DNA from: Agelas oroides
Taxonomy: Eukaryota; Porifera; Demospongiae; Agelasida; Agelasidae
Direction: 5' to 3'
Assembly (NCBI GenBank): GCA_949130485.1
Contig: OX422185.1
Span: 14,755,011 to 14,819,010, forward strand
DNA: 64,000 nt
Each line of letters starts with the position of its first letter. The first letter of the stretch is position 1. This document shows positions 19,961 through 64,000 of the stretch, piece by piece. Under the pieces are notes generated by a model. It searched no databases and was not told where the DNA came from. It saw only the letters and a program-made list of their open reading frames with translations. Position numbers and translations under genes: made by a program.

Positions 19961-19979
19961 CATTGCTGTATCGTCTGTT

Positions 19980-42579: not shown

Positions 42580-42587
42580 TATAAAAG
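42580..42587 (+). promoter_or_regulatory. TATA box of the NLR gene
   Basis: TATAAAAG, 62 bases before the ATG at 42642. A start of transcription near 42610 would give a ~30-base leader. Alternatively the CAG at 42634-42636 could be a splice acceptor of an untranslated first exon. Confidence 0.45.
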
Positions 42588-42641: not shown

Positions 42642-44803
42642 ATGGCTACTGCTGCCAGACCCTCCTTGGAGGTGTTGAAAGATGTGCCTCCTGAGAAACT
42701 GGATGAACCCTGCAAGGATGAGCACCTCTATGAGTTATCCCTCTCTATCACAGACTGGCCATCTATATCGCCATTCCTGGGACTGACAGAAGCAGATGAA
42801 TCTGAGATAGAGGACTGTAAAAGGGTCAGGACGCAAGCAATCAAGATGCTGCGAAAGTGGAGGAGTAAACATGGGGGGAAAGCTACATATAGAAATCTCG
42901 CAGGTGTACTCTTGAAACTGGAGGAGACTGATCTTGCTGAAAAGCTATGTGGTCTTATCTGGCAACGTCACAGCAGCAGTAGTGATGTTCAGCCACAAGT
43001 TAGTCACAAGCTACAGAGCACCAGCAAACCAAGTGATCCTGAAGAAACTAGCAGAAGCATTCGATGTCAATATGCAAACACCCTCAGAGACAAGTACCAG
43101 TCTGGAGTTCCCACTTTTCTCACTCTCCAGTGGCCTCCTCCACCAACCCGCAAGGTTTTTAACCTGACCATGATCTCACAGAGAGTACTACATTATGGCC
43201 ATGATGAAGAGTTGGTGCGGCTTCTACAGAGAGGAAAAGTCAAGGATGCAGTGAGTAGCAGGGATAGAGTAACACTGGAGCAAATATCTGATAGCCTGCA
43301 TTCAAAGGGTCGAAAGGTCATCCTGATAGAAGGTGCTCCAGGAGCTGGTAAGAGCACCTTAGCCTGGCATCTCTGTAAAAGGTGGGAAGCAGGAGAGTTG
43401 TTTCAGGAGTTTGAAACTGTCCTTTTTGTTCAGCTACGTGAGCCAGTCATTCAGTCTGCCCAGTCTTTTGAGGACTTGCTTCCCACTGACTCAAATATGA
43501 GAAGTGAGGTAGTGTCTGCAATTCAGTACTGTCGTGGTCACCAAGTGCTAATCATCTTAGACAGCTGGGATGAGTTCAAACCAGGGCTACACCAACAGTC
43601 AGTCATCAAAAGTCTCATCTGCAACCCTTCTGCCCTGAAGATGCAGTTCAGTGCTCTCATCATCACCTCGCGACCAATAGCAACAGCCCAGCTACAACAT
43701 TTTATCTCAAAGAGAATCGAAATCGCTGGCTTCCTGCAATCTGAAATCACACGCTATTTCAACGAAGCAATTGATGATCCTAAGATAGTGCAGAAACTTA
43801 GTGACCGTTTAAGGGAACACCCAGTCATTGAAGCCAGCTGTTACCTTCCTTTAAACACCGCCATTGTTACTCATGTCTTTCTTGCTCAAAACCACACCCT
43901 CCCAACCACCCTTCATGGAGTGTTTACCTCACTTGTTAAATGCTGCATTAAAAGACATCTGAAAAGCGGGGCAAAAGAGGGAGAAGTAATCCCAAAGATT
44001 TCATCACTAGATCACCTACCTCCGAATATCCAGGAGCAGTTCGAATACTTATGCACCCTAGCCTACCATGGTGTGATGGAGAACAAAGCAACATTCTCAG
44101 AAGAAGACTTGCAGTCATTCAAGCTCCCAACAGAACTGAGCACACTCAGTTTGATGCAAGGGGTGGCAAGTTTTACAGATACTGAAGAGTCCAAATTGTA
44201 CAACTTTCTCCATCTCTCGACCCAAGAACTGCTTGCTGCATTTTACATTTCAAAACTGCAACCGGATGAGCAAGTCAAAATTTTCAACCAACTCTTTGAA
44301 GAACCTCGTTTTGCAAATGTATTTCAGTTTTATGCAGCATTCACCAAACTTCAAACTGCAGGAATTCGGGACACGATTTCCAGCATTGTGAAGAGCGAAA
44401 AGAAGATCCTCATTTTATCTCTCCTTCACTGCCTTTATGAGGCTCAGGATGACACACTCTGCCAATTTGTTTCCTGCCAACTCAAAGCAGAACTGGATCT
44501 TTCTCGACAAACTCTGAGTCCGGTGGACTGTCTGTCAGTGGGGTACACTGCAAGAAGTGTGTGCTCTGCTACTGCTGGACCATTCAAACTGAAACTCACA
44601 ATTACCCGATTTGATGAGTACGGTGCCAATTTGCTATTGAAAGAGTTGTTAAAGTACTCTATCCCAAGTGTTCCAGAGACAGCAGTAAAAACTGAAGAAG
44701 TACAAAACTTGCATTTGGAACTGGACGGAGAACGAAGTAGTTCCTCATTTACCGAGCGAGCCACAATAATCCGCAAGCTGGGCCAGTACTTGAGAGTATT
44801 GAA
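42642..44803 (+). CDS. NLR-type receptor, exon 1: Death domain + NACHT ATPase
   Basis: Cytosolic pattern-recognition receptor of the NACHT-LRR type; animal homologues sense microbial or damage signals, oligomerise through NACHT and recruit partners through the Death fold. Start: first ATG (ACTATGGCT); 720 codons plus two bases in this exon. Death domain ~26-110 (LYELSLSITDWPSISPFLG ... AGVLLKLEETDLAEKL). Linker ~111-225. NACHT: Walker A GAPGAGKST at 231-239, Walker B LIILDSWDEF at 303-312, sensor ITSRP at 341-345, then the helical/winged part to ~590 (LYNFLHLSTQELLAAFYIS). The last ~90 residues lead into the LRRs. Ends at donor GTAAGT (44804) after LRVL plus two bases; the phase fits exons at 49633 and 58638. 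No stop, frameshift or missing NACHT residue seen. Death-NACHT-LRR layout is known from sponge NLR expansions. Confidence 0.9.
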
Positions 44804-44835
44804 GTAAGTAATGAACTTCATATAACCTATCAGTG

Positions 44836-45216
44836 GATGCTTTCACGATTGAGGTGTGGTGGAATTTAGATAAGATGCAAATTATATTCAAAGCGATAAC
44901 AGGAAGTTCTGGTCACACCTTCTGGTGGGAAAGAACTGTACTGCACTCTATGGAGACAATTGTTTGACGCTGGTCTGGTAGCCTTGGAAAGTATCGGTCC
45001 CGGAGAAGGTATTTACTATGGTACGCTAAAGTGCCATACGTTACCTAGCAAAGAGAACCTCCCAAGGCAGCGACCAGCTCCATGGTTTTTGCGACAGATT
45101 TTCTCTCGCCCGTACAGTGCCGCACTTTCCTTCCCACCAAGGGGCATGACCGTAACTTCATGTTATCGCTTTGAATATAATTTGCATATTCCATCACACC
45201 TCGATCGTGAAAGCAT
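44836..45216. mobile_element. MITE in NLR intron 1, GATGCTTTCACGAT ends
   Basis: ~95-base inverted ends: GATGCTTTCACGATTGAGG, then GCAAATTATATTCAAAGCGA, and TTGGTGGGAAGGAAAG-type inner words, all mirrored up to GAAAGCATC at 45216. Only 32 bases beyond the exon-1 donor. Confidence 0.75.
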
Positions 45217-45649
45217 CTATAAGCAATTCTGGTATTAATGGGTGCTTGTGTTATGTGTATAGAGCCAGTACAATAGTTTGGGTTGATGCATTATAGTATC
45301 AGCATATTTGACCTACTATGCAGAAGTATCTACACCACAAGCATATACATGTACATCTTCATCAAACTTCACAGTTTATTCATTAGTATGTATTGTACTG
45401 TTCTCGGGATTCAAAACAACAGACATGCACAAGCAGCTGCAGCTAGCGGTTCACAATGATGGAGATCTCAGATTGTATTTCAGTTGTGACTGACCGTTTA
45501 CAGTGAAAACTGCCCAGAAATATAAACTGGGTGCCTAAGAATGTTCTAGAATTTTAGACAGTACACATGCAGACAACAGTTGAAATAAAGGTATTGTAAA
45601 CATTATCTGCACAGATAATTGACTCTCCAGTTCTGATCACTAAACAATA

Positions 45650-46018
45650 TACCGTATAGCGGGAAATTTTCACTGGGTGCAAATTTTCGTGATTTTTGCT
45701 GACAGACCTGCTTCTGCGAAAATATAAAACCACGAAAAAATGAACTAAGATGCGTACGTCGAGTATCCATGTGAACGAGATGGTTCTATACAGTCTGTCT
45801 GCCCTCTAAATGGTTGCTGTAAAGAAGAATCAGCCTCCTACTGTAGAAAATACCAACGAACCCATAAGAGATGGTCCGAAGATGTCGCATCAACCGGTAG
45901 GGGTGTGGTCAGAGCATCCCGCGTTCTGCGAAAATAAAAACCGCAAAAATTTCTTCTGAAGAGCCAGGACGCTTTTCCACGAAAATTTGCACCAGCAAAA
46001 ATTTCCCGCTATACGGTA
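45650..46018. mobile_element. MITE in NLR intron 1, TACCGTATAGCGGG ends
   Basis: TACCGTATAGCGGGAAATTT, then GGTGCAAATTTTCGTG, mirrored at 45970-46018. TA at both ends indicates a Tc1/mariner-type duplication. Confidence 0.85.
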
Positions 46019-46655
46019 ATTTAGCTCTCACAGTATAAATTGAAGAGGCATAGCAACTAAATGGCTGTGAAGTATATGTAGAGTCAGCATATTCCAGAGC
46101 ACATGAAGTTTTCTCTTGTTCAACAAGTTTTAGAAAGTGGTTCTAGGGCAAGCCTCCATTCTCACTCAGTTTTTGTTTCTCCATTTGATGTGTCTTCTAT
46201 TTCTACTTTTGTTCGTGTATATGCTCACACTGTTCTACTCTCTAACAAAAGGCTGCCTTTATGCTTGCCATTCGTCTGGCTGACTCCATGTAATTTGAGA
46301 TTGACCACAGCTCTGTGGTACTGTCACACATCTGCAGCTTTTTTCTACGAAAACTGGCATGTAAGAACCAACTGCTTCTAGTGTGCTTAAACTGCCATAA
46401 CTGTTACAGCCGTTTCCACTGACCTCAAGTGCTATGTTGCTATCCAGTTCACTATACTATGTAATGGCATCACAAGTGTTGCAACTGTATTGCCTAAAAA
46501 TGTATTGTCAACGCACTATTTCTGTTGCATTCACGTCATTCTGTTAAGATAAAGTACAGCCCTCTACTGATGATCAGACTGTGTGTGGTGTGATTAGGAC
46601 TTGTTAAGATCATGATTACAGTCTGGTGCATCCAAATATATATTTCTATGGATAT
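46019..46655. other. Intron 1 sequence, nothing recognised
   Basis: ORF 46103-46381 has no motif. Confidence 0.35.
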
Positions 46656-47165
46656 GCCCTAGTCTTGTGAAAGAGTGCCATGGGCGGAGCACGTTACAAA
46701 TCTGCCAAACAGGGGAGTGGGAACTCTTTCGAGCATTTCTGCATTTAACTACAAAACAGCACCCATGTTATGTTTACAGTGACTCAAAGCAAATAATCAG
46801 TGGACAAACAGTAATGTATAAGGGCCAACGGCGGCTTTGAAGTCAAGTCCTGACACTACACACCACTCTGAAGGGCACCATGACACCGTGAGCATGTTGT
46901 AGCTCGCAAAGTATGCTGTGTTAGCTATGTCTGTCTACGTAAAGCTGCCTTGTAATAACCTTCAGTTAAGTATAACATGAAGTTTCTTACCTCAGATATG
47001 GATAGCGCTTGAGGCTGTACTTCTCAAACTCCATGGGTACTACGCAAAGCTCACTCCAGGGTGGGTGCTCATTCGAGTAAACTTTGACCCTATACAGGAA
47101 ATTGGGCCAAAAGTAGAGAGTGGGCACTCTTTCGAGTGTGGGTACTCTTTTATGGGACTATAGTA
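46656..47165. mobile_element. TACCGTAGTCTCGCG-family MITE, copy 2 (diverged)
   Basis: Same order of words as 31297-31797 (GCCATGGGCGGAGCACGTTA, CATTTAACTACAAA, CTCACTCCAGGGTGGG, GAAATTGGGC), but ends eroded (CCCTAGTCTTGTGAAA / GGGACTATAGTA). Older than copy 1. Confidence 0.75.
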
Positions 47166-47217
47166 TATGGAAACTTGCATTCACTTTATTGAATACAATC
47201 CTCATGTAATGATTTAG

Positions 47218-47470
47218 TGATCTTCGGCATACCCCCATTCCCAGGCTCTTCCACAGCTACAGTATGTAACAAAAGCTGGGGAGGATCTTGGCAACAAGCC
47301 ACTGTGGCACACAATGCTTGTATATTAGGTCCAAGTAATAAGTTGGAATCTTGATGCTTAAACTTCCTGAATCACACACCAAGCATATTTATGCTAATTA
47401 CTGTAAGATGTCAACTAATGAAGTTGACAAAACACTATAAGCTCACGTATCTAATATCTGAGGTAATAAT
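47218..47470. repeat. Intron-1 duplication, copy 1
   Basis: Matches 49300-49570 in the same orientation: GGCATACC..CATTCCCAGG, CACAGCTACAGTATGTAA, AAAGCTGG, GGATCTTGGCAACAAGCC, ATCTTGATGCTTA, CTTCCTGAATCACACACC. The second copy is followed 60 bases later by LRR exon 2; no LRR exon follows this one. Confidence 0.75.
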
Positions 47471-47629
47471 AATGTCCCACATTATACTTTAGCAAAGTCG
47501 ATTACAAAGTGACTTTCTGTAGACAGATATAGCACTAGCTACATCACAGTGGCATGCTGCTATTTCGAGTGTTGAGTGCCACCAGGACTCCTCAAAGGCT
47601 GGTCACACTGGCAGACATTCATGACATTT

Positions 47630-47752
47630 CACTGTGAAACAAAGGATGCTCTTTTCTGGACAAATGCAAAACACTTGAAAGAGCACCCACCCCCTCTCGG
47701 GCAAATAATGTAAAGTGGTGTGCCCGTGGGCACTCTTTTGTGAGACTACGTA
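47630..47752. mobile_element. TACCGTAGTCTCGCG-family MITE, fragment
   Basis: GAAAGAGCACCCACCCC, CCCGTGGGCACTCTTTTGTG and GAGACTACGTA recall the family's ends, but only one flank is preserved. Confidence 0.5.
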
Positions 47753-49255
47753 TTTGTAAGTTGCATAGTATCCCTAGCGACCAACTTGTTTCAACAATGA
47801 AATAGCCCATTTTCTATTCACTGTATCTCAGAATTACACAGCTTATCAAGGTACAGACCACTTCCCATTTCTTATGCTGGCATTGGAGAAATGGCTGGTT
47901 TTACTGACCATTCACAACTGTTTAATGATAGTGGGCTACTCATGAGGCTGTTCATATTTGTTCTTCATTTTGCAATCAGTACCTGAGCAAGATGTCTATT
48001 AAGACAAGGCTCTGTGTTTTAGATGTTTGCAACAGTGAGGTTCCACTGCAGCCCAGTTAAGACATGCTCAAACATTCTTCTGCCACTACTCACAACAGTT
48101 ACTATTTCCAGTGACCATGCCAACAAGTGACTCACAGGTCTTATAGTTGAGCCACAAAGCCAGGGTTCAGTGATAAATTTGTGGATCAGATTTGTTACTT
48201 TAGAAGACAGCAGGCTCAACATAACCGTGATAAGGCCTATGGTGGTGGACGGTGAGAGAATCTGCTCAGACTGGATGCGTCCTTGAACGCAACCCACCCT
48301 GACACATCACTGCAAGATGAGGACTAGTGTCACATTGGATCTTATAGTTGCTTCCACTATCCTCAACCTTTAACAGAGAAATACGTAGCCTACCACCATA
48401 TTGCTGTATACTCTGATCCAATGGGCCCACTGCATGAGTAAGAGTGTTCCAAAGCCTACTGTATGTAACTAGAGGTAGCTACTGATAATTTTCTTTGAAG
48501 GAAAAAGTTACATTTTGGAAAAAAACACAATATAACCTTTGTCTAACATACCATATATACTCACTAACATGATATGCCTCCATTTTCTACACCAATTTGA
48601 ATCTAAAGTGGAACAAAGCTTTTAGTCAGAATTTCATTTGTATATATCCCTGGTTCAACATAAGGCCGACACTAGTATTGCTGTAGCTATCTAGAAAAAT
48701 AGCAACACCTTGGTAGTGGGATATTTTCAAGCATTTGTTGGAATTTTCTACAGAAGAGAGGCAGTGAGATAACTTGTTCATCAGTGTTGACAAGAGACAA
48801 CCAATATCTGTATTTCGTATTGCAAGCAATGCAGAGCTGAGTGGTGGCCTGGGAACAAGGTTATAGTGGTTCCATGAGTGTACAAGTTCAGAAGTAAATG
48901 AAAACACTTGATAAGCATGTTTGAAGCTAAACTAAAACAAGCTTTCTAACCATAACATGGTACATGTGACATTCTAAAAGATGGTCACCATGGGCAATTT
49001 ACATGAGTATAATCTATGGTCCTGGAGTATGTATATGTCCAGTGTTTACTTGTAGTGAGATAATTGTTACAGCTGCCAAAAATGATTTACGTTGAATCAA
49101 TTATTGTCCTAGCAACATGCTTTTGTGTTCATGAAAAATGACACGCTGGGTTGAGATCGCTTCAGGGTTGTGCATAAACGGCACTCATAAAAACTAGCGA
49201 TTCAGCTCATGATTTCAGTGTGAAGCTTAGTCTACTCATGTGTAGCCATAGTAGC
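47753..49255. other. Intron 1 sequence
   Basis: No gene. GGCCTGGGAACAAGGTTA at 48846 is a lone MULE-like MITE arm. Confidence 0.35.
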
Positions 49256-49300
49256 TGCTTGCTCAGGCTTGCCCCCACAATGTTCTACATTTTCTAGTTT
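49256..49300. mobile_element. Half MITE, GGGGCGAGC family (outlying copy)
   Basis: CTGCTTGCTCAGGCTTGCCC then CCACAATGTTCTACATTTTC and CTAGTTTAG, abutting the duplicated intron segment. Confidence 0.5.
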
Positions 49301-49570
49301 AGTGGTCTGTGGCATACCCTCATTCCCAGGTTCGTCCACAGCTACAGTATGTAATAAAAGCTGGAGGATCTTGGCAACAAGCCTACTGTGACACACATTG
49401 CTTGTGCTAGGTTATGCCCAATCCATAAGTTAGCATCTTGATGCTTACACTTCCTGAATCACACACCCAGCATGCTTACACAATCTTACAGTCAATGCTA
49501 ATTAGTGTAGCAAGTCAAGTATAACCAAGTTTAAAAACCACTACAAGCTTGTTCAATCTGTATCTTACAA
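49300..49570. repeat. Intron-1 duplication, copy 2
   Basis: Direct repeat of 47218-47470, ~2.1 kb downstream, ending shortly before the LRR exon at 49633. The copies differ by small indels. Confidence 0.75.
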
Positions 49571-49632
49571 GTAGTCAGGAATTAGCATTTAAGCTAGGGT
49601 ATGGTGACTGAGTGCTATGTCTCTTTCCACAG

Positions 49633-49716
49633 TCTCTTCGATAATCGGATTGGGAATACTGGTGCTGAATCCCTTGGAGATGCCCTGAAAGAATGCACAA
49701 AACTTGAATACCTCAA
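49633..49716 (+). CDS. NLR gene, LRR exon 2 (84 nt, one repeat)
   Basis: Acceptor TTTCCACAG before 49633, donor GTGAGT at 49717. With the two bases carried from exon 1 it reads NLFDNRIGNTGAESLGDA then LKECTKLEYL, one 28-residue ribonuclease-inhibitor-type leucine-rich repeat (LxxNxIGxxGAxxLxxALxxCxxLxxL). Length 84 = 28 codons with the same phase on both sides, so such exons can be gained or lost without changing the frame. Joins directly to exon 1. Confidence 0.85.
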
Positions 49717-50794
49717 GTGAGTATGAAGTTAAGCATTAAAGTATGTCCAGTTGATAGCTGCAAAGACAATGGGAAATACTTTGTTAGGGTAGGCTGTAAT
49801 GATACTCTAATCTGGTTGCCATCACCACATGCGTACATTGTTATGTACACATTGCATCTGCTTATTGTTGTACATAGACACCTACTAATGCACCCTCTTT
49901 GACTATAAGCCCTTGCTTTCTTTAACTCTTTACCGACTGTAGCAAATTCTTGCAATATTACGTGAATGACCACACAGGAATTCCGGAAGCGGCCTTGACG
50001 ACATGTTGTATACTCCGTGTTATATCTCCAGTTGCAAACCAGCTACAGACTTCTGGTCAAAAACATTGGAGAGCCTTGGGCTTTGTCTAGCTTCGCTGTA
50101 GTTCTGAAGCTTACCACTAAAGAACCAAGCCTGGAGATAAACCCGAACGTTTTATACCGGAAGTTGCTACCTTTGGTCTATTAGCACAGAATGACATAAC
50201 AGCTAGTCTCTCAAAGATTTGATGCTTTGATTGCTGGCCTACTGGATGCTTCAGTACCTGCTGCAATAGGCTGGCACAGTCAACCACGGTTAAAATACGC
50301 TGCACAAACTTGCGTGAATGAAGAACAGTCCTAATTTAAAGGCTCCCTCCAAAAACAGTTGTAATGCCCAGAGGGCACCCACTTTGGAACAGATAAAATT
50401 ATTTTCAGGTTACGAGATACCTTGATTGGAGAGATACCTTCGCACCTTAATTAGTCACCTGAACGCGGTGACCATATTTATACTTTCACATATTACAACT
50501 TCCTGTATGTATGCCCATGACAAGTTTGTGCACTTTCTACATGGGGCTAAAAAGCTTAGTGAGATCTGGGGGTACGCCCCTCCATACTGAATACTAATGA
50601 GGCTAAATCACACCTTTTGACATCATCAGACTAGAAAGGCAGGATGGGGCAGTAGTACTGGGTCAGCACAGAATAGCTACAAACATATAAATTACTAAGC
50701 CGTTATCAGATAAAATAGACACAAATAATGCTTGTTAGCATGTTTGTCACTTTGACCATCCAAGTTGAGAACAAAAAGTTTTATGGTATATAGG
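49717..50794. other. NLR intron 2, first part
   Basis: No repeat or coding match seen; short ORFs only. Confidence 0.35.
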
Positions 50795-50990
50795 TACAGT
50801 AGATTTTGCGAAAGTCTTGCAACAAGCGTAGCTGACAGTGGAAAACCACACTGTGTTTGAACCAAGACGAAGGCTAGCCTTGTCCCCAGAGCCTGGGGAC
50901 TAGGCTAGACGAAGGCATGCTGAGGCGGGTAAGATATAATCAGATTCGCTGTTCAGCTTGCTTGTTGCAAGACTTTTGCAATCTGCTGTA
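50795..50990. mobile_element. MITE with TACAGTAGATTTTGCGAAAG ends
   Basis: The ~30-base ends (continuing TCTTGCAACAAG) are mirrored at 50961-50990. Hosts a 33-bp insertion at 50874-50906. Confidence 0.75.
50874..50906. mobile_element. 33-bp MULE-like micro-MITE, nested
   Basis: CTAGCCTTGTCCCCAGAG and CCTGGGGACTAGGCT, a bare foldback, flanked by AGACGAAGG at 50865-50873 and 50907-50915 (exact 9-base duplication). Smallest member of the family in the window. Confidence 0.75.
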
Positions 50991-52244
50991 ACAAAGGTTA
51001 TATGTGATTGTAAATAGATCTATGGATCTTACATACATTACACATAAAGCTTACAGGGTGGTAGACATCGGTAGGAAGGTAACAGTAACAAGTATTCTGC
51101 AAGTTCATGCAATACAACATATACTAGTATAGTACCAGTACATCACGTTTTAACATGACTGTGTTGTCAATGCTGATTCTCTACATACCGCTGTTCATTG
51201 AATAAACTTAAAAACAATCTGTTTGATTGTTTGATTGTTCCCTTCTGACTGCTTTGTTGCTTGATTTACGGCAGTTCAACAAAATATCAACCGGGGCCCT
51301 TTTAGTATCTGAAAAATATTGTGGACTTGTTGATCCCTGTCGCTCGCATAAATTTGTTGATCAACTGTCACCAAGTAAGTTAGCCTGGTCACAAATCTCC
51401 TACATACACGTGACGTGTAAGCACCCCTTTCATGGGGTTTGGTTCACACTGTTGATTCACCACAGAATGCACAATGGTTCTGTTGATGTTTGCATTAAAC
51501 ATTAGTGCTCTACTGAAGCTTTGCCTTCAAGTGTGAGTGTGAAGTGTCTTATGCGCACTCGTAACAATGCAGATGGCAACAAATTCGTGATATTTTCCGG
51601 TATACCTTTGTACTATGGTGATACTTATATAATAACACAAAAAGCAAAACTTTATAATTATCCGTACACTCTAATTCATACACACCCCTTTTGGGAGGAA
51701 AAAACGGTATTTTACATCTTGCAGTTGATTTGTAAAGTGCAAACAATATATAGCAAAAGGTTTGGGCAGAAGTGCAGAGAGGTGGCCCAAGGTAGTGAAA
51801 TAGCGTTACTGACATCGAGAAGTATGAACAAGCACGCTTTGTCGACTCCTGGTAGTGATCACACAGCCAGGTAAGATGGCAAAAAGAATAAAAATTTAGA
51901 TGCTCAGCACTTTGCTTTTAGGAATTGTCCATGTGTTTGTCCAGCTAAATGCTGCGGCACGTGACTGATGCTATCTTCCCCTTTGAAGTTCATCGATAGC
52001 CTCAAACCAAAAAACAGCAGATTGTTACCATCTCCCGGCTGACTTCAAACCTGCCTGTATGTGTCTCACAGGGAGTGTAATCCTGTAGTCTGGCCTTTCA
52101 ACAAGCAACAGAAATTGACTGTAATTTTAGTGTAGCGGAGTAGTATGCAGGTTACCAAAAGAACTTGGCACATGCGTGAACATGTGTACCAAGCTCTTTA
52201 TTCTCCTCCCCTGCACAAAAGCCTGGGATGAGGTTAGTAGAAAA
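50991..52244. other. NLR intron 2, no feature
   Basis: ORFs such as 51521-51874 show no motif. A GGAATTCGG-free, AT-rich stretch. Confidence 0.3.
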
Positions 52245-52765
52245 TAGGCCTGGGTGATAATAGCGATAGTTTGATATATTGTAATAAGCCTGTAACAATG
52301 GCGTCACAAATGGTAAGTTGAATACTCAAATGTTCATAACAGCTGTGCCATATGTCAAACTCTGCCTAAGCTCCAATATGTTTTAGGCCTATGGTCTCTT
52401 TTCTTAACAGTCCTTGTTGCATGTCTGCAGCTGTTCAAGAACCAGAGATACAGTCGACAATTGGTCGATTGACACCAAACCCTGCCCCACCAACTTACAG
52501 TGTTTGGAAACAGCATATTATTCCTTAGAAGGTATTTCATTCTTGGATATGCTTTATCTAAAGGCCTTAGGTATGTCTTTATTCCGTGTTGATAGATTGC
52601 TTGTAGGCAAAGACATGCTGTGTAAAAAATTACCCAGTAGCCAATGAGTACTGATTCAGCAATCATAGTTACGTACGAATGTGTGTACTAACTTGTAACT
52701 ACGTATTATTGTGATGTTATCACATATCGTGAAACTTCAAATATTTATGTTATTGCCCAGGCCTA
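52245..52765. mobile_element. MITE with TAGGCCTGGGTGATAATA ends
   Basis: TAGGCCTGGGTGATAATAGC and inverse (…TTATTGCCCAGGCCTA). The AT-rich ATATATCGATAT-type sequence near 63800 may belong to the same broad group. Confidence 0.6.
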
Positions 52766-53509
52766 GTAGGAAACCTCAATCGCCCTAAACCAAGGATTAC
52801 CTAGTACTGTGAGCCCCACCACAGGGAAAAGGGTACAAGCTGAAATTGATCAAAGTTGTTGATATGAAAGCTGGCCTCTGTTTGGAAGGACAAGATTGCC
52901 AGAGGGCTAAGCAACACTGTGCAGCCTGATGAACTGGATGCAGTAAAATGCAAGGCTAACTCATGCTACCCACGGGATGGCAAGGCTGTCCAAACTCACT
53001 TGCCAGGCTTTGTGTACAGGTATCATGAGAGTGGCAAGGGCCTTTAACCATAAAGCCAGGCAAACTGAGGCAGAGTCAAGCCAGGGAACACCCTTTGCTC
53101 TAAGTCAACTACTTACCAGTGCGTAACATTCCCTTTTGCAGCAGCTGCTCATGGTTTTCCTTAGCCTATACAGCATTGTACCAGTAAGGTAATCATCAAG
53201 GTCTACCACTAACTAGACCTGCTCTGTATTCATAGCCCCTCTACAACTTCAGGATACAAATAGCAGTGGTAAAAACAGTATCGGCTGATTTAATTTGGTG
53301 GCTTCAACCCCAACTGCCAAACCGCCAAATTTAATTCCCTGTCACATTTTCCGGCTATACAGCATATATATTTCTAGCAAGAACTTTGCTCTGTGAGCTG
53401 GGTCTGGGCACAAGAGTAATTTTTCTGGAGCTAAAGGTATATGCCTAACATGAAGGATGTGCATGGAGTTTTAATTTGTGGTATCATAGCTACGTATGTA
53501 CTCCACAGT
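52766..53509. other. NLR intron 2, no feature
   Basis: Nothing supported. Confidence 0.3.
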
Positions 53510-53534
53510 CGCCCCTACCCACACACATACCTAG

Positions 53535-54536
53535 TTGTCTTTGAAAGCACTTTGTGAAGGCATCCTGGATATCAAAACCCATATCAAGCCCACCAATACC
53601 CAACAGTATGTACATGCCTCATCTGCCCACCCCCCTGGAACAGGCCGGGGTATCATCAAAGGAGAACTACTTAGATACCTCCGAACGAACTCAAACGAAG
53701 CTACATTCCAAACGCACAGAGAGAAGCATGTCGAAAATATGAAAAAAAGAGGATATAGGCAAGAGACCATAGACGAGAGCATTAGAGGGATTAAATTCCC
53801 TGACAGACTAAAAACGCTAGCAAGCAAACCACATGCTGGAGATGAACGCCTAACTTTCACTACTACATATTCACCGCATTTACCAACACACCGCCTCAGA
53901 AGATTGCTTGTTAAACGCTGGCACCTCATCGAGAAATCCCCGCTACTTTCTAGACTTTTCCCAAATAGACCCACGGTAGCCTTTAGAACCCATAAGAGCA
54001 TCAGAAAACAGCTTACCCGAGCAAGACTAGAGGACTCAAAGATCGTATATAAAATTGACCGAGACCTCACTCTCCTTTGTGAACCCCTGCCTGCCCTGAA
54101 TGCACCCCCACTAATCAAAAGATGCAGTAATAACTGCTTGACATGCAGAGCCCTCGATACCAAACCTTATATTAAGAGCACCTCCAAAGGTACATACCAC
54201 AACCTCAAGATTACAAACACCATCAGCTGTAAAACAAGGAATGTCATCTATGTAACAACATGCACTAGATGTAAAGTCCAATATGCAGGAATGACCACAC
54301 AACCCTTACACAATAGATTCAGAAACCATTTGAGAGAAATGTTCACCAAAAGACCACCTAACTGGGTACAAACTCGCCTGTATAGACATGTCCAACAGAA
54401 CCACCACATCCCCTCTGACGTCCAAGTCCAGCCAGTTGAAAGCACAGAAGATCAAAGAAGTCTGAAGAAGAGAGAAAGTGCTTGGATCAAGGCCTTAAGA
54501 ACAATAGAACCCTATGGACTAAATATCATCCCATAG
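53535..54536 (+). CDS. Penelope-like element, C-terminal part with GIY-YIG endonuclease
   Basis: 333 codons, open. Begins in the RT thumb: HIKPTNTQQYVHASSAHPPG and KGELLRYLRTNS are the usual post-catalytic blocks. Then a Cys-containing linker (CSNNCLTCRALDTKPYIKS) and the GIY-YIG nuclease: VIYVTTCTRCKVQYAGMTT, then LHNRFRNHLREM and RESAWIKALRTIEPYGLN. The nuclease nicks target DNA to prime reverse transcription (family knowledge). Start is uncertain because the first codons lie in the flanking direct repeat. Ends naturally at TAG after LNIIP. Confidence 0.85.
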   Translation: MSLKALCEGILDIKTHIKPTNTQQYVHASSAHPPGTGRGIIKGELLRYLRTNSNEATFQTHREKHVENMKKRGYRQETIDESIRGIKFPDRLKTLASKPHAGDERLTFTTTYSPHLPTHRLRRLLVKRWHLIEKSPLLSRLFPNRPTVAFRTHKSIRKQLTRARLEDSKIVYKIDRDLTLLCEPLPALNAPPLIKRCSNNCLTCRALDTKPYIKSTSKGTYHNLKITNTISCKTRNVIYVTTCTRCKVQYAGMTTQPLHNRFRNHLREMFTKRPPNWVQTRLYRHVQQNHHIPSDVQVQPVESTEDQRSLKKRESAWIKALRTIEPYGLNIIP

Positions 54537-54800
54537 CCTCCCTACACCTACTGCCATTGCTCCCGTTTTGTTGTCCCTCCAGGGTTCGTTCCCTGGAGTA
54601 TACCTCCCTTATTATTTTTTGTTTGTATTTGAAGACCCTTTAGGCCTTTCACATGCTGTATCCCTTAGGCCTTACATAGTTTACGATAGCATGCTGTTGC
54701 CATGGCAAACACGCTATCACTAGATACACGCCGTTGCTAGTTATCACACACGCTGTTACTAAGCAAACCTATATTTAAGCGCTGTTTCATTTCATTGTAC

Positions 54801-54844
54801 TTACCCTTGAAAAAGCTCTCCATAGATGAGCGAAACGTCGGGCC
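54801..54844 (+). ncRNA. Hammerhead-like ribozyme motif in the Penelope-like 3' region
   Basis: TTGAAAAAGCTC-loop-GAGCGAAACGTC: GCTC (54815-54818) pairs with GAGC (54828-54831), followed by GAAAC, the conserved 3' core strand. The 5' core strand reads TTGAAAA where the canonical hammerhead has CTGATGA, so it is degenerate. Penelope-like elements are known to carry hammerheads at this place. Confidence 0.4.
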
Positions 54845-54919
54845 TCTAAGCAGTGATAAAGTTTTGACCAACCCCCTCCTACTGTCCTCATCAATAAGCC
54901 TATACCGCAGCGCCGCAGT

Positions 54920-55570
54920 ATGATGTCATTTTTTAAACTACTGCACTATACTACTCGCCTGAGATACGCTCTTCGGTCCAGGGAGATCTATACCGAGGAA
55001 CCGATTACGTCCCCGGAGATACTGTCAGAGCCTCCCCAGACGCAGGATGACAGCATCAGCAGCATACAAGAGACGCCGAACAGCCAATTTAGGCTGGCAC
55101 TCTCGGTAACCCCGTGCATACCCCGTATAAGTAGTATAGAATCTGTTAACCATAGCCCTTCCCCCTTACTGTTTAGCCCCACACCCACCGCAAGCCCAGT
55201 CCATGCCCATACCCCTGATTCCACCCAGGACCAGCCACCTCCCCCTCCACTTAGCCCCACTAACAGTCTAACCTCTTCCCATAGCACTAGCCCCCAGCAT
55301 GAAGAATCCCTATCTGGATCCATCGAACTATTCAGCCCCACCCCCAGCATAATCCAAAACAAGTGGCCATCACCCCCCCCTCTCCCTCAACGATCCCCAC
55401 GCATTAGGAGAAGACACAATTTACACAGCTATGCGAGCCTTGCCTCAACAAATGGGAGCTACGATGTGCGTAGCAGTGTTGGCACTCTCCCACCCGATAC
55501 CCCAACCCCTACCCACATACATACCTGGTTGTCTTTGAAAGCACTTTGTGAAGTAGGTAGTTATCATTAA
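54920..55570 (+). CDS. Penelope-like element, N-terminal leader ORF
   Basis: From MMSFFKLLHYTTRLRYALRS through a long Ser/Pro/Thr-rich low-complexity part (SPTPTASPVHAHTPDST) to a short basic block (RSPRIRRRHNLHSYASL). This looks like the disordered N-terminus upstream of a Penelope RT. It runs out into the flanking direct repeat, so the RT proper is missing. Confidence 0.5.
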   Translation: MMSFFKLLHYTTRLRYALRSREIYTEEPITSPEILSEPPQTQDDSISSIQETPNSQFRLALSVTPCIPRISSIESVNHSPSPLLFSPTPTASPVHAHTPDSTQDQPPPPPLSPTNSLTSSHSTSPQHEESLSGSIELFSPTPSIIQNKWPSPPPLPQRSPRIRRRHNLHSYASLASTNGSYDVRSSVGTLPPDTPTPTHIHTWLSLKALCEVGSYH

Positions 55571-57050
55571 TGCAGCTAACGATGATGCACCAAGATAACC
55601 GTACTGAAGGGAAGATGAAAGTCAGATCTGGAAGGGAGAAACCAGGAAACTTGAAAGATAGTGTGCATCAAAACATGCAACACAGGGCTGTACTACAACT
55701 GGTTCAGCCATGGTCATACACTGGTTTTTTGTGAGTGCTTGTGAGCTGTAGTGCTGCCTCTCAGAACAAGCATGCAAGACTAATACTACACTCAAAGTTT
55801 AACACTTAGAATCATGCTCGCTATTGATCAAATGGCTGCTGGTGAAGAGGGATGTAGGATAGTGAAATCCCCGAGTACCCCATTAGTCCAAAGTATTCAG
55901 TTGTGATTTTCAGCATTCTGGTTTGCAGTCCTAGAAAGGGTATTTGGATAAATTTGTAGGGGGGTAGGTGGGGACAGGGGGCATGCCCTCAGATTATGGC
56001 ATACGAATGTGGCTGGACAGGTAATTTCTAATACAATTTCTTTATCATACTGTGTAAACACTGTCTGAACATGAAATTATGAACTACCGTTTAGCCTATC
56101 ATGAAAATGTGTGTTCAGTTCACAATATTGAGGCTGCATGGCTGTAGACAACGTTTTGAGTTTGGGAATGCTTAATGTTAGACTTTCATTTTAGGTTGTC
56201 AATGTGCTGTGTGCTATGCACCCAGCCATCTAGGGGGGTCTGGAGGGATGCTACCCCAGGAATGTTTTTTTACAATTTGGTGTTCGGAGATTGATATCTC
56301 GAGCACCTTTTGATCAAGGCAATGGTTAATATATGAATGATCACAAAATATAAAGTGAAACCACACAAATTTTCAAAAATAGACTGGTGGTTAAAATTTC
56401 TCAAACAAACTCAATAGCCACAGCTGTTATGTCAACCTTGTCTGTCTCATCACTGTGAACTAGTCTTGCAAGCCAGCTGTATTTTACACCTTTTCAGTCT
56501 TATCTGGTGCATAGTATTCCTCAGGCATGTCTTAAAATGTCTCAGCGCACTGAACGACCTCTCACTGATAGCGTTAGTGGTAGGCATGACGAGAATCAAT
56601 TTTAGCAATGTGCATCACTACACTGCAAAACACAGTCGAATAATTGGAATGTGATAATAGGGCATGGCCTAAGCGTGGTCAAGACCGACAATCAGTGTCA
56701 AAGCGAAAAAAATCACCTGACAAGGTAGCAACATTAGATAATCCACATTATTTCTTTTCTATCCAGAACAGTAGCACTAATTCATGTCTTATACTAGACA
56801 CAGATGCCAAAAATTTGGGGGTGGTTAGCACCTACTTGTCTACAACCTTGGGCTGCCAGTTGTTAATGTACATGGCTACAGCTATGCTAGCAACTATTAG
56901 CACCACATTGTAGGGGTTACAAATTGTTGAACTTGGTTCACTGGGGGATCCAGAATAGCTGCCACATGACTCAAGAGTCAATGAAAATAAAGCTGGATGG
57001 GCTCTTTACCCAGGCAAAGCTATCAACACAAGTTAGATACAAGATACAGT
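55571..57050. other. NLR intron 2, no feature
   Basis: Unique, AT-rich; no coding or repeat signal supported. Confidence 0.35.
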
Positions 57051-57240
57051 AGGAAGTCACTTATCCAAACTTCCGTTATCCAAATCTTCACTTATCTGAA
57101 CCCCTAAAATAGTGATATTCATCGATACTTTTGCTGTGCATTAAATGGAAAGTATTCGGCTTTGTATACAAATAGTATTGTTTCACTCAGTCCAAACATT
57201 TCAGTTATTTGAACACCCCTTGGTCCCAGCATACCATATA
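57050..57240. mobile_element. Possible Tigger/pogo-type MITE fragment
   Basis: CAGTAGGAAGTCACTTATCC, AAACTTCCGTTATCC and CACTTATCTGAACCCC resemble the CAGTxGAACCTC..TTATCCGAAC ends of mariner/pogo MITEs. A second, related stretch (CATTAGTGAGGTGTCC...) is at 57962. Terminus not paired. Confidence 0.35.
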
Positions 57241-57699
57241 AGCTAGCTTGGTCTTCACATCAAGCTCCACAAGTGCTTTTAGTGTCATACGTTATTGAAC
57301 TAGATAATACGGTAACTTATTGACAAGAACAGGAAGAGTGTACTCACAACATAACACACATACACACAGACTAACATGTGGAAGGTGTGTAACCATGGAA
57401 AGACTGGTCTTGATATAACTAACCACAAACCCACAAGCACACTTCACTATATACACAGTTTACACAGTGCATTGGTCACAAACACAGGGACAGGAAGTGA
57501 CAGTTGTTACCCAAAAACATTTGGTGATACATACTGTACTCACCCCTTGTTAAGTGCTTATGCTAATATCTCAGGAAATGAGTGCCCAACAGCAAAATGT
57601 GTGCCTAACAGCAAGAAACATTGTGTCCTTTATTTAGAGTAATGCATGCAAACCAACATTTAGCAGCGAACATGCACTTATAAACAGAATGCACTTAAC

Positions 57700-57790
57700 A
57701 ATGTGTGCGTACAGTATGCATACAGTATGCATACAGTATGTACACACACATACACACACACATACACACACACACACCCTGCACATACAC
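57700..57790. repeat. CA-rich microsatellite
   Basis: CAGTATGCATA units followed by (CA)n with TACACA interruptions. Confidence 0.8.
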
Positions 57791-58637
57791 ACAATCACAG
57801 ACGCCAATACTGCAATTTATCTGGGGTTAAATTTTCTATTTTGCCATCATTTTAGTGTATACTCTATCCTGTGAAATTAATATGTTGATTTGTGTTTGTT
57901 GCCTTCTGAATGTAATGGTCACACTTCACCAGTATATTTATAGTAGAATCCAACTAATAAGCATTAGTGAGGTGTCCTTAATTCAGGTGGTGGATAATAC
58001 GCATATGATGTTGGAAAGTGTTGTGATTTTCAGGGGTGTCCTTTAAGAGGAAATCCACTGTATCTCAAGTTGCGATACATGTCCTTAAAAGTGACTTCAT
58101 TATTTAGAACGTTTCTGTGTATGTGTGTTTGCACCGCAGCATCACCACAAATTGGAAAGCTTCTCTAGAGAATTGGAAGGCTTGTTTGTGAAGCAGATGG
58201 TTTTCATAAAGTAGCAGAAGGCTTCTTTTGAAGACGAAAAAGGCCTCGTGTACTTTCCCAAAAATAAAGGCTTTGCAGCAGTTTCCAGAGCTTTGTTCAA
58301 GCCTTCTGGAGCTGCAATTGTGGTGCAGTAGTGAAAAACGTTTCTGAAACACATCATTTGTAAAGACATGTACCATACAACCTGATAAGATAAAGACCAG
58401 CATGCAGCTCAGGCGTCTGAGTTAAACAAACCCAAGGGTCAGTGAAATACTTTCATAATAAAGAGTGTATTCTGCACTTACTAAAGGTTGTTATAAATGT
58501 TTATTTACATTCCTAGCCTCTGTAGTAACACTACTGCTCTTGCCTAGTTTCATGGTCAGGCTGACTCTAGTGATCATACTTGTCATACAATAACAAACAT
58601 ATCACATGTACGTATGTACTTCTATTTACATTCACAG
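57791..58637. other. NLR intron 2, last part
   Basis: AGGCTT/AAGCCT words cluster at 58155-58310 and could fold, otherwise nothing. Confidence 0.3.
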
Positions 58638-58721
58638 TCTCTATAGGAATGGGATAGGTGATGACGGAGCGAGGTGTCTGTCAGCAGCAATTGAGAACAT
58701 GGTCAACCTTCAAGTGTTAGG
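58638..58721 (+). CDS. NLR gene, LRR exon 3 (84 nt, one repeat)
   Basis: Acceptor TACATTCACAG, donor GTAAGT at 58722. Reads NLYRNGIGDDGARCLSAA then IENMVNLQVL, one 28-residue LRR in the same register and phase as exon 2. Nearly nine kilobases of intron separate them. No terminal exon or stop is seen to the right, so the gene most likely continues beyond 64000. Confidence 0.85.
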
Positions 58722-59278
58722 GTAAGTTGACATAGCTACACTGAAGTGCATCCTGACCTACACATTTTAACTACATATTTTCCAGCAAAGTAACCGCACC
58801 CCAAGATGCTTATAAGAGGTAATGTTTGCTGGTAGGCCTTAGCTACAAGACCTGAAGTAGGTTTTAGAGATCAGGGATTTTGTGCTGCAAATTTACCTGA
58901 AGTAGAAAGCCTTAGAGTTCAGAGTTTTGTGGTTTCTTAAAAAAGCTTTACCCTTGAGGAGCCAGACATCAGTTTATCAATTGTGAATAGTAAGGCATGC
59001 CTTCACCTCCTTCATACTCGCGCATTACGCGCGTAATATCAGCCCGAAGCGCGGTAGTGCACTCAATACATGCAATGATTTTATACGTAGTATATTGAAT
59101 GTGTGATGTCACGTAAGCGGAAAAATCGCTTCGGGAGTCACTGTGAGGGGTGACAGTGGTGTAGCTGGTGAAAGGAGAGTTGTTGGTGTACCAAAGTTTC
59201 ATTCATGGGGTAAGTGCACCATGCCATTAACGAATATCAACTCAGATTGGATGTTCAACGCTTCCTCCGGCCTGTGTA
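58722..59278. other. NLR intron 3, no feature
   Basis: No supported element. Confidence 0.3.
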
Positions 59279-59372
59279 TTATATTAGTTATATTAGTTAT
59301 AATAGTTATATTAGTTATATTAGTTATATTAGTTATATTAGTTATATTAGTTATATTAGTTATATTATTTAC
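59279..59372. repeat. 9-bp microsatellite TTATATTAG
   Basis: About ten tandem TTATATTAG units, one with TTATAATAG. Confidence 0.9.
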
Positions 59373-59870
59373 GCGGGTTCTTTAAGTTGCATCTTGGGGT
59401 GTAATAAGGTTTTGTTAATAACCATATATGGACGTCCATGTTTGTAAGTTAACAACCTGCTACAAGGGAATGCATCCTGACCTTCATAGTCATATTGTAA
59501 CTACATATGGATGTCCATGTTTGTAAGTTAACAACCTGCTACAAGGGAGTGCATCCTGACCTACATAGTCATATTGTAACTACATATGGACGTCCATGTT
59601 TGTAAGTTAACAACCTGCTACAAGGGAATGCATCCTGACCTACATAGTCATATTGTAACTACATATGGACGTCCATGTTTGTAAGTTAACAACCTGCTAC
59701 AAGGGAATGCATCCTGACCTACATAGTCATGTTGTAACTACATATGGACGTCCATGTTTGTAAGTTAACAACCTGCTACAAGGGAGTGCTCCTGACCTAC
59801 ATAGGGACGTCCATGTTTGTAGGTTACCAACCTGCTACAAGGGAGTGCATCCTGACCTACATAGTCATAT

Positions 59871-60511
59871 GTGACCCGCTGAGGGAAAACCCGGCACTTC
59901 GCGCAAATATTGAATTTGAGTTAGAGGCAATTTTATCCGTACAGGTCGTTTCCCAGCTAAACTCAGATTATTGCACCAACGTGTCACAGGGGGCTTGCAC
60001 TGTATGATGCTGAATTATAAAGGCCGGCTCTGCTACTTTAACGACGATATAAGCTCGAACTCACAGGCAGGCCCGTGAAATACGGGAACGCGTTGCTATG
60101 GACAGCTTGTACGCGTTTTTCAAAAAACGCGATTTTACCAGCTTCCAGTCCGTATACGGTTGTCTTTCTGTCCATAGACACAATGTAAGCCCCCGCTTTC
60201 ACAACCGCTGTCTTTCCCAACTGTCTTTGCCGACTTTCAAGTTGCTTTTTAACAAGAACACGTGTAAATTTACGTGACACGATAGTATACGGAGATATTG
60301 AAATTTACCGTAGCAACATAAAAACATTGCGTTTTCTCGAAAAGTTGCGTTCCGCATCCGCTACGCATTTCGCTCTGTAGCTCGGGAACCAAGCAACCGA
60401 TCGCTTCCATTTTTTTTCTGCCGCACAATTACACATTGGTATACCGATTTCCGGTCTTATCTCGATTTTCATAAAATGCGCGATGTGCCGGGTTTTCGCT
60501 CAGCGGGTCAC
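59871..60511. mobile_element. 641-bp MITE inside the minisatellite
   Basis: Ends GTGACCCGCTGAGGGAAAAC and inverse (…GTTTTCGCTCAGCGGGTCAC), with inner CCGGCAC...GTGCCGG. Flanked by ATAT on both sides (59867-59870, 60512-60515); the uninterrupted units read CATATTG, so the duplication is ATAT or a shorter part of it. Confidence 0.85.
60038..60280 (-). CDS. 80-codon ORF in the 641-bp MITE, unknown
   Basis: MSRKFTRVLVKKQLESRQ, then GKTAVVKAGAYIVSMDRKTT and PYFTGLPVSSS. Basic start and orderly composition but no recognisable domain. May be a leftover of the parent transposon's gene or chance. Confidence 0.2.
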   Translation of the reverse strand: MSRKFTRVLVKKQLESRQRQLGKTAVVKAGAYIVSMDRKTTVYGLEAGKIAFFEKRVQAVHSNAFPYFTGLPVSSSLYRR

Positions 60512-61184
60512 ATATTGTAACTACATATGGACGTCCATGTTTGTAAGTTAACAACCTGCTACAAGGGAATGCATCCTGACCTACATAGTCATATTGTAAC
60601 TACATATGGACGTCCATGTTTGTAAGTTAACAACCTGCTACAAGGGAGTGCATCCTGACCTACATAGTCATATTGTAACTACATATGGACGTCCATGTTT
60701 GTAAGTTAACAACCTGCTACAAGGGAGTGCATCCTGACCTTCATAGTCATATTGTAACTACATATGGACGTCCATGTTTGTAAGTTAACAACCTGCTACA
60801 AGGGAGTGCATCCTGACCTTCATAGTCATATTGTAACTACATATGGACGTCCATGTTTGTAGGTTAACAACCTGCTACAAGGGAGTGCATCCTGACCTAC
60901 ATACATGTAGGGACGTCCATGTTTGTAGGTTAACAAACCTATATACAAGGGAGCACATCCTGACCTACATATATATTGTAACTACATATATTTAAGGTTT
61001 TGTTAATAACCATATATGGACGTCTATGTTTGTAAGTTAGCAACCTGCTACAAGGGAATGTATCCTGACCTACATAGTCATATTGTAATTACATATATTC
61101 AAGGGTTTTTATGGCCATATATGTCCATCAACGTAACCTAGCTACAACAATGGAGTGAGTGCTTAACTTTTCATCAAGCATGAG

Positions 61185-61265
61185 GCCTACTGTAAAGTGT
61201 GAAATGGACTGTGAAATGGACTGTGAAATGGACTGTGGAATGGACTGCAGAATGAACTCATTCTG
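61185..61265. repeat. Short GTGAAATGGACT tandem
   Basis: Four to five 13-base units GTGAAATGGACT(G), the last ones altered; followed by the palindrome CTGCAGAATGA...TCATTCTGCAG. Confidence 0.8.
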
Positions 61266-62036
61266 CAGACTCACCAAAAGTGAAACTATGCTTTGATCTG
61301 ATGCCGAAATGACCACTTTGCATTCCCTCCGAGTTCAGGAACACTAGTGGCCACTACAATGCACTCACAGGTACCTATGCTAGCTGCTACATTAAAACAA
61401 CCATTGTTCTCTTTCTGAGGTCTCACCATCCGAGTCAGCTGTCACTGCAGTGCAGTTATTGCTTTCTGAATGCATGGACCATGCTTTGGGCTACTCCGAC
61501 TCTGAACCAAAACATACAAGATTAGTCGTCCTTGGATAAAATGTTAGGTCAATACATGCCATAACTTGTTGGATGACAACAACTAAATCTTGCGAGCCAA
61601 CCGTATAGGAAAAGCATGAGATAACACGAGACTAGATGAAGACATATCGTCTAGCAAATGGAGACATTAACTCCCGAGATTAGTTGTTACTGTCAATATG
61701 TAGCCAGTGTATAACCTAGCCCCCAGGCCTTCCAGCCTGCAAAGATGGTGAACATCGTGTGTGTACAAAAACTTGTACAATCGGGAAGCTAATGATGTTT
61801 GCACCGGAGAGCCAAGGGGCAAGGCTAGCTAGTGTCAATACACTCATGTTGGCACATATAGTTTGGTTCCCATACCTACTATAAGTGTTTGTTTGTACTT
61901 GCACTGTACTAGCTAGTACAGTAATGTTCATGTATGCAGAGAGGCTGTCATTTCAGCATCAGATCAAAGCATACTTTTACTTCTGGTGAGTTTGTGGAAT
62001 GAGTCCATTCACAAGAAAAACAGTATTTTGAACATG
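61266..62036. other. No gene recognised
   Basis: Contains CTAGCCCCCAGGCCTTCC (61719) and CCAAGGGGCAAGGCTAG (61812), possible eroded ends of a MULE-like MITE. Confidence 0.35.
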
Positions 62037-62345
62037 TACCGTAGTGTCCCGCAAATAGGCCCCCCCTCGCACATAACCCCCCCCCCCTACATTTTTAGCA
62101 CAAAGTCTTGCAGAGGTATTTTTATCCCGTGCATAAACACCCCCCCCCTCCCCCCCCCCCCCCCCCTCCCCCCCCCCCCCCACCAGCGAATGGCAGCGCA
62201 AGAATGGCAGCGCACCGGAAGGGAGGGCGTAATCGCAAGAGAAAATGTCACATCCCACATATAAGCCCCCCCCCCTGCGCTTTGCACTAAGGCTAAGGTT
62301 GCAAAAGGGGGGGGGGGGGGGGCGTATTTACGGGACACTATGGTA
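62037..62345. mobile_element. 309-bp MITE, TACCGTAGTGTCCCG ends
   Basis: TACCGTAGTGTCCCGCAAAT and inverse (…ACGGGACACTATGGTA), with long C runs on the left and G runs on the right that pair with each other. Full-length relative of the ends at 3254 and 5176. ORFs in the C/G runs are artefacts. Confidence 0.85.
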
Positions 62346-63280
62346 TATATATTCAACTCTCATTCATGAAAAGGGTGTCACTGGATGTGACCTTGCATTG
62401 AATGTGTCAAAATTTTAGTGGCATTGATGGATCAAATGCAGAACATCGAAAAACGTTTTAGTTAATTTCAACAAGGGATGCTCAGACCTCCCTCCAAACC
62501 ACCCACTTAATTCTGATGAGGGTGGGCTAAGGCTAGGACTACATTCCAATCGTAGTACCATTAAGACTGATTAAGTGTCATATCTATATGCTCTAGCTAG
62601 CCTAGTACTTAGGAAGTGCACATTATGCTTGCTTAATTTTTGAGCACAATCGGCAGCTGTGTAAGAAAAGAGCACAAAGTGTCCTCCTATCAGGGTTTCA
62701 TCTACAGGTAGATACACAGAATTTCATGGAAATAGTCAACGACTAGCCATATGTACTGATAAAGATCTTTAAAATGAAACATTTGCAATTACCTATTGTG
62801 CATTTGCCATGGCCAATTGCTCACAGAATTACTGCACATCTGATTGTGACGTAACAGTTAATCAGTTCAGTGACCTTTGTACTGCACATGCACAGTAACC
62901 GTCAGTCTTCTAGGTGCTACTAAAATCAGGAATACACTGTTATTTAATGGATGAGACGGCAATATGGCTGGATATTACACTCCTGTGAAAATACAGCCAT
63001 GTACTTGTGCAATATCTAGCCACATTGCACTCCCACACACAAATAATATTCATCATACGTCAACCTCACACAAATGTATGGGAGTCAATGGAGAAGCCTT
63101 GCAGCTGCATGCAGTCTATAAAAAGCTGTTTTTTTGTACTACAAGTCACATGAGAATCCGTATCAGGTACTGTAAGTCACGTGCACTACGTCTGAACATG
63201 CAATGAAATCGAAGATCACATAAGAAAATCATTATCACCATAGCGCCAAGCTATATCAGAAACCATATCAGTTGTTGTTG
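62346..63280. other. No gene recognised
   Basis: GGCTGGATATTACACTCC and GTGCAATATCTAGCC near 62968-63020 form a loose inverted pair. Nothing else. Confidence 0.35.
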
Positions 63281-63795
63281 GCATTGTGTTGTACTATGGT
63301 GATACTTACATAGTATATACACGATATGGGCATTGTGTTGTACTATGATGATACTTACACAGTATATATACACGATATGGGGATTGTGTTGTACTACGGT
63401 GATACTTACATAGTATATACACGATATGGGGATTGTGTTGTACTATGGTGATACTCACATAGTATATACACGATATGGGGATTGTGTTGTACTATGGTGA
63501 TACTTACATAGTATATACACGATATGGGCATTGTGTTGTACTATGGTGATACTAACATAGTATATACACGATATGGGGATTGTGTTGTACTATGGTGATA
63601 CTAACATAGTATATACACGATATGGGGATTGTGTTGTACTATGGTGATACTTACACAGTATATACACGATATGGGCATTGTGTTGTACTATGGTGATACT
63701 AACATAGTATATACACGATATGTGCATTGTGTTGTACTATGGTGATACTAACATAGTATATACACGATATGGGGATTGTGTTGTACTATGGTGTA
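63281..63795. repeat. 49-bp minisatellite
   Basis: About ten units containing ATTGTGTTGTACTATGGTGA, TACTTACATAGTATATACAC and GATATGGG. Units differ at a few fixed positions (TACTTAC/TACTAAC, GGGG/GGGC), in an irregular order that records the duplication history. Confidence 0.9.
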
Positions 63796-64000
63796 GTGCT
63801 GAAACAATATATCGATATATAGCGATATTGCAATATTTAGTTCTGCAATACACAGCAATACACTTGGTTCTGAGTATTGATATATTGCGTGTCAATTATT
63901 TATCAAACTATTGTGCTATTAGCTATACATGCATAAGTTCTGGAGATGGGTTGCACATATGTAATTAATTGATTGACCGCAAGTCCTCGTGTGTTCAGGC
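63796..64000. mobile_element. AT-rich ATATATCGATATA element start
   Basis: GTAGTGCTGAAACAATATAT, CGATATATAGCGATATTGCA follow the minisatellite. The sequence resembles the widespread cgatatatcgatat-type MITE ends, but the right end lies beyond the window. Confidence 0.35.

Follow-up and report, generated by a model that had tools for sequence, protein, structure and literature searches.

Positions 42642 to 58721 of a 64,000-nucleotide stretch of contig OX422185.1 (the whole stretch is called the window below) carry one large exon with Death and NACHT domains and two distant exons that each encode a single leucine-rich repeat (LRR). The question is whether these three exons belong to one receptor gene and, if they do, whether their layout is a means of varying the sensor surface of the receptor, as a first-pass annotation of this DNA had proposed. 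We find that the three exons most likely form one Death-NACHT-LRR gene, as far as sequence features can tell. It is best explained, with a probability of about 0.83, as a multi-exon animal NOD-like receptor (NLR) gene of the order Death-NACHT-WHD/HD2-LRR (WHD, winged-helix domain), of which the window contains the large exon in full and, of the LRR exons, the first two to be recognised. The coordinates and lengths of the three exons (Table 1) agree with that annotation to the base.

Domains encoded by exon 1

Exon 1 begins with the ATG at 42642, stays open throughout its 2162 nucleotides (nt; 720 codons plus 2 nt) and is followed by gtaagt. A Pfam scan of its translation placed Death, NACHT and NOD2_WH all above the Pfam cut-offs, which bears out the annotated Death and NACHT domains. 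The annotated phase-2 end holds likewise. The NACHT motifs are intact: GAPGAGKST (43332-43358), LIILDSWDEF (43548-43577) and ALIITSRP (43653-43676), which we take to be Walker A, Walker B and a sensor-1-like motif, respectively. The winged-helix domain is followed by FLHLSTQELLAAF (44205-44243). In the same scan the HD2 signal was weak (NLRC4_HD2 at 18.2 bits, below its cut-off) and no FISNA match was listed at E 0.1. The nearest solved proteins are NLRP3 structures (E 4.8e-20, residues 184-547), and the Death region gave weak structure-database hits, one on THO complex subunit 1 (8.5e-4) and one on Fas (0.0098).

Identity of the LRR exons

Exons 2 and 3 each encode one 28-residue LRR of the ribonuclease-inhibitor type, as had been annotated. 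The conceptually spliced tail (the end of exon 1 with exons 2 and 3, 93 residues) matches Pfam LRR_6 at 1e-12 in two stretches. In the PDB it hits 50 distinct sequences at E <=0.1, which include the LRRs of ribonuclease inhibitor, RanGAP and NLRs; the best of them is entitled 'Leucine-rich repeat protein' (1.8e-18). It may be noted that our ribonuclease-inhibitor-type LRR score was made by hand after the exons had been seen, and therefore Pfam serves as the independent test of LRR identity. On applying the score to all open segments of the form AG/84 nt/GT or GC in the whole window (132 on the forward and 151 on the reverse strand), both exons reach 30.5, the remaining 130 forward and 151 reverse segments do not exceed 9.5, and 20 random 64-kb sequences of order 3, each scored on one strand, reach at most 14.0. 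When the splice requirement is dropped, the next-best open segments score 16.5 on the forward strand (n=17,408) and 18.5 on the reverse (n=17,341). Both are lower than the 23.7 reached at most by the random sequences, and a third canonical LRR therefore does not emerge. None was found on either strand of the window, a search in which degenerate or exon-split LRRs could be missed. A tblastn search of the window with the two LRRs as query likewise returned only exons 2 and 3 below E 1.

Joining of the three exons

The exons end in ...QYLRVL, ...TKLEYL and ...VNLQVL, and in each case two bases of the next codon remain on the exon side. With the codons joined, the junctions read LRVLN/LFDN and LEYLN/LYRN, which is the expected L-x-x-L-x-L-x-x-N strand. 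The exon border thus falls at a common LRR position (L-x-x-L/) in all three exon ends, and phase and register agree at both junctions. Exon 2 is preceded by ...ttccacag and followed by gtgagt; exon 3 by ...attcacag and gtaagt, respectively. The splice sites, scored by a general consensus, are strong: only 11, 9 and 3 of the 1220 GT sites equal or exceed the three donors, in exon order, and 8 and 20 of the 1204 AG sites the acceptors of exons 2 and 3. Because the exon ends share an LRR position and adjoin strong splice sites, the exons probably belong to one Death-NACHT-LRR gene. The same observations (splice sites both intact and strong, three ends in one register), together with 720 codons free of stops and intact ATPase motifs, make it improbable that the gene is decaying or broken, or that the LRR exons are those of another gene, even though introns of 4.8 and 8.9 kb with mobile-element remnants, a total of just two LRRs and the lack of a recognised gene end would all suit a locus that may have lost its function.

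The 3′ end of the gene either lies beyond the window or is unrecognised, exon 3 ending in phase 2. A candidate terminal exon at 58786, with 12 codons to its stop, was rejected as not significant (55 of the 1204 AG sites score equally well). Past 58740, acceptors with a score of 4.0 or more number 7; each runs into a stop within 5-62 codons, and they are not distinguishable from chance. Tandem-repeat arrays with 79-nt and 49-nt units lie 3′ of exon 3 (59419-61123 and 63283-63793), the first of them broken up by an element whose ends are inverted (59867-60515).

Several points count against a single receptor gene of this kind. The joining of the exons is a prediction from phase, register and splice sites; only two LRRs occur across the 19.2 kb 3′ of exon 1; no terminal exon was identified within the window past 58721; a single-sequence AlphaFold model of exon 1 alone was unusable (pLDDT, the per-residue confidence, 41.2; pTM, the confidence in the overall fold, 0.25); and no paralogue or orthologue for a frame-selection estimate was found in the prokaryotic or viral collections searched.

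STAND-type receptors are autoinhibited, the LRRs sensing or restraining, the NACHT domain switching and the Death domain signalling. By analogy, the product of this gene is most likely an autoinhibited receptor of that type. Exons 1 to 3 would be spliced in order, all of them normally included, and more LRR or terminal exons would follow past 58721. Exon 1 closes with the opening half of an LRR strand (LRVL/), and each 84-nt exon contributes one LRR. Going by the family, the LRR solenoid would keep the receptor closed or sense a cue, the NACHT ATPase would switch and oligomerise, and the Death domain would recruit Death-fold partners. The modularity of the exons would then be inherited family architecture, and the long introns would have grown through insertion of repeats and mobile elements.

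Exon skipping and shortened forms

Since the LRR exons are 84 nt long with matching phase, skipping or adding a whole exon keeps the frame, and this part of the first-pass annotation holds as a matter of arithmetic. It had gone on to suggest that the sensor surface could vary through alternative splicing or exon gain. Such a reading, taken to include exon gain or loss between alleles, would have the number and identity of the LRRs differ from receptor to receptor. Every exon combination does stay in frame, and precedent exists in human NLRs of like layout, where splicing events were reported in all NLRs examined, exon skipping was most prominent in NLRP3, and NLRP3 exon 5 was skipped at 33% (PMC6642158). 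But frame-neutral exons permit skipping without implying its use, and the strong splice sites suit constitutive inclusion as well or better. In NLRP3, moreover, the LRR exons 4, 5, 7 and 9 are essential for activity while 6 and 8 are dispensable (PMC11352923), so that skipping there acts mostly as on/off control and chiefly switches activity. The two LRR exons of the present gene have diverged, with identity of 38/84 nt and 10/27 residues, and their flanks, compared ungapped over 20-60 nt, show 33-50% identity. Low identity and unalike flanks indicate that they are not recent duplicates, and no recent exon copy or exon gain was found in the window. A copy of an LRR exon near 47.5 kb, suspected since 47213-47443 resembles the stretch 49298-49549 close to the 5′ side of exon 2, was discarded, as that likeness ends 84 nt before the exon 2 acceptor; no LRR occurs in 47200-48300, and exon 2 itself is not part of the recurring stretch. 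Variation of the sensor is therefore possible but unsupported, and we consider it unlikely.

A short Death-NACHT form arising by intron retention or intronic polyadenylation is likewise doubtful. Exon 1 alone would give 721 residues without LRRs, and the in-frame stops met on retention (TAA 44805, TGA 49718 and TAA 58723, each 2 nt into its intron) would terminate the protein at the border of an LRR. There are also 13 AATAAA/ATTAAA motifs in 44804-64000, the first at 45584, a number that chance may account for. A phase-2 stop is moreover automatic with consensus donors: the window has 102 donor-like sites that rank as strong, and a stop follows in 82 of them when read in phase 2, in 3 in phase 0 and in 1 in phase 1. 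Retained introns also commonly trigger decay. As a novelty the phase-2 stop was dropped, being generic among the donors of the window and already published for Yarrowia (PMC2911113).

Intron contents and surrounding elements

Table 1. Features of the putative receptor gene and its introns, in positions of the window.
Feature	Position	Strand	Evidence or remark
TATAAAAG, possible TATA box 62 nt 5′ of the ATG	42580..42587	+	short motif, possibly a chance match
Exon 1, start codon to phase-2 donor	42642..44803	+	Death-NACHT-winged helix-helical part
Death domain, residues 36-102	42747..42947	+	Pfam PF00531, E 8.8e-10
NACHT domain, residues 226-377	43317..43772	+	Pfam PF05729, E 2.1e-20
Winged-helix domain, residues 466-522	44037..44207	+	Pfam PF17779 (NOD2_WH), E 2.5e-07, 31.1 bits vs cut-off 23.1
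Intron 1, 4829 nt	44804..49632	+	donor gtaagt
Palindromic MITE-like repeat, intron 1	44836..45217	.	starts 33 nt into the intron; inverted self-match
Inverted-repeat element, intron 1	about 46657..47750	.	partial copy, of its 5′ part, at 31299-31803
Stretch between the arms of the 46657-47750 element	47213..47443	+	78% identical to 49298-49549
Exon 2, single LRR, 84 nt	49633..49716	+	phase 2/2
Intron 2, 8921 nt	49717..58637	+	
Mobile-element remnant of ~2 kb, intron 2	53512..55553	+	48-nt direct repeats 53512-53559 / 55506-55553
Exon 3, single LRR, 84 nt	58638..58721	+	phase 2/2

The mobile-element labels on the intron sequences are ones that we infer. The stretch between the arms of the inverted-repeat element in intron 1 is possibly host intron DNA captured by a mobile element. 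The intron 2 remnant is presumably Penelope-like, and the open frame between its direct repeats (53535-54533, 333 codons) has a weak GIY-YIG match at E 0.014, below the Pfam cut-off. Stop-to-stop frames of at least 90 codons in 44804-58637 number 15, and none of the 12 scanned with Pfam reached a cut-off, the three left out being 51227-51502 on the forward strand and 53534-54166 and 54991-55386 on the reverse. Rfam gave no match in the window.

Further elements lie 5′ of the gene. An intact 646-codon reverse-transcriptase frame on the forward strand (25983-27920, Pfam RVT_1 7e-34) is probably a LINE-type element. A second, distinct reverse transcriptase with an adjoining frame occupies 19444-20622 on the reverse strand (RVT_1 2e-13 in 19984-20622) and is perhaps, by our assumption, DIRS-like. 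An open frame at 273-803 on the reverse strand ends in a PHD finger (7.5e-08), preceded by a stretch that we take to resemble an Ulp1-type protease.

Relatives were sought in the collections viral_contigs and genome_contigs. Pattern matches numbered 6 and 18, respectively, for exon 1, 1 and 19 for the 646-residue reverse-transcriptase frame, and 8 in viral_contigs for the GIY-YIG frame of intron 2, with none confirmed; the 79-nt tandem repeat, queried with a 36-nt segment, had 0 matches in viral_contigs. As these collections are prokaryotic or viral, the misses carry little weight.

Comparison with known systems

The exon layout had been put forward as notable in itself. The layout stands, but its novelty does not, human NLRs having already been described in this way: most human NOD/NLRC genes carry one 28-residue LRR per exon, frame-preserving and with the border always at one and the same point of the repeat (PMC6642158). 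The present gene likewise has a single ribonuclease-inhibitor-type LRR of 28 residues per frame-preserving exon (2/2 LRR exons), with a border that is constant within this gene. Unlike human NOD/NLRC genes, it has Death and NACHT on one exon, two LRR exons seen and repeat-rich introns. Human NLRP3 and other NLRP genes share with it frame-preserving LRR exons and, as the hits above indicate, the closest solved NACHT region, but their exons of 171 nt hold two LRRs. Human NLRP genes also have a Pyrin domain, and none such is present in the Death-NACHT layout here.

Should the host be a sponge and the human borders prove equal in residue as well as phase, the phase-2 exon with one LRR would predate the sponge-bilaterian split and phase 2 might be a built-in rheostat. 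We regard this combined proposition as highly improbable. If it were true, skipped exons would shorten the solenoid in frame and retained introns would truncate the protein after a complete LRR, which would yield a graded receptor set from one gene. With a sponge host, the locus would in any case offer a dated comparison for the age of the one-LRR-per-exon layout of NOD/NLRC genes, and a place where cDNA can tell exon skipping from intron retention.

Within sponges, Death-NACHT-LRR receptors (NLRD) are an established class, with 25 of the 126 bona fide NLRs of Dysidea avara belonging to it (PMC12909245). The likeness of sponge NLRD genes to the present gene is one of domain order; the main text of that paper contains neither 'exon' nor 'splic'. 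Our literature search, which among the sponge papers covered passages of PMC12909245 and PMC8242945, found no description of LRR exons of sponge NLRs, and a query on LRR exons of 84 bp brought up one paper, which was unrelated. In the zebrafish NLR-B30.2 genes, the largest exon encodes the NACHT, winged-helix and superhelical parts and the LRRs are on single exons (PMC4852459). The plan of a large NACHT exon followed by single-LRR exons is therefore common to both, whereas the zebrafish genes have FISNA and B30.2 and the present gene has a Death domain. The label 'sponge-type' that the first-pass annotation gave the gene is plausible, though NLR expansions have been reported also in sea urchin and lancelet (PMC4852459). 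Read from its sequence, the putative gene combines two documented features, the one-LRR exons and the Death-NACHT-LRR order, and as it stands it adds one more receptor gene to a family whose large size in invertebrates is established.

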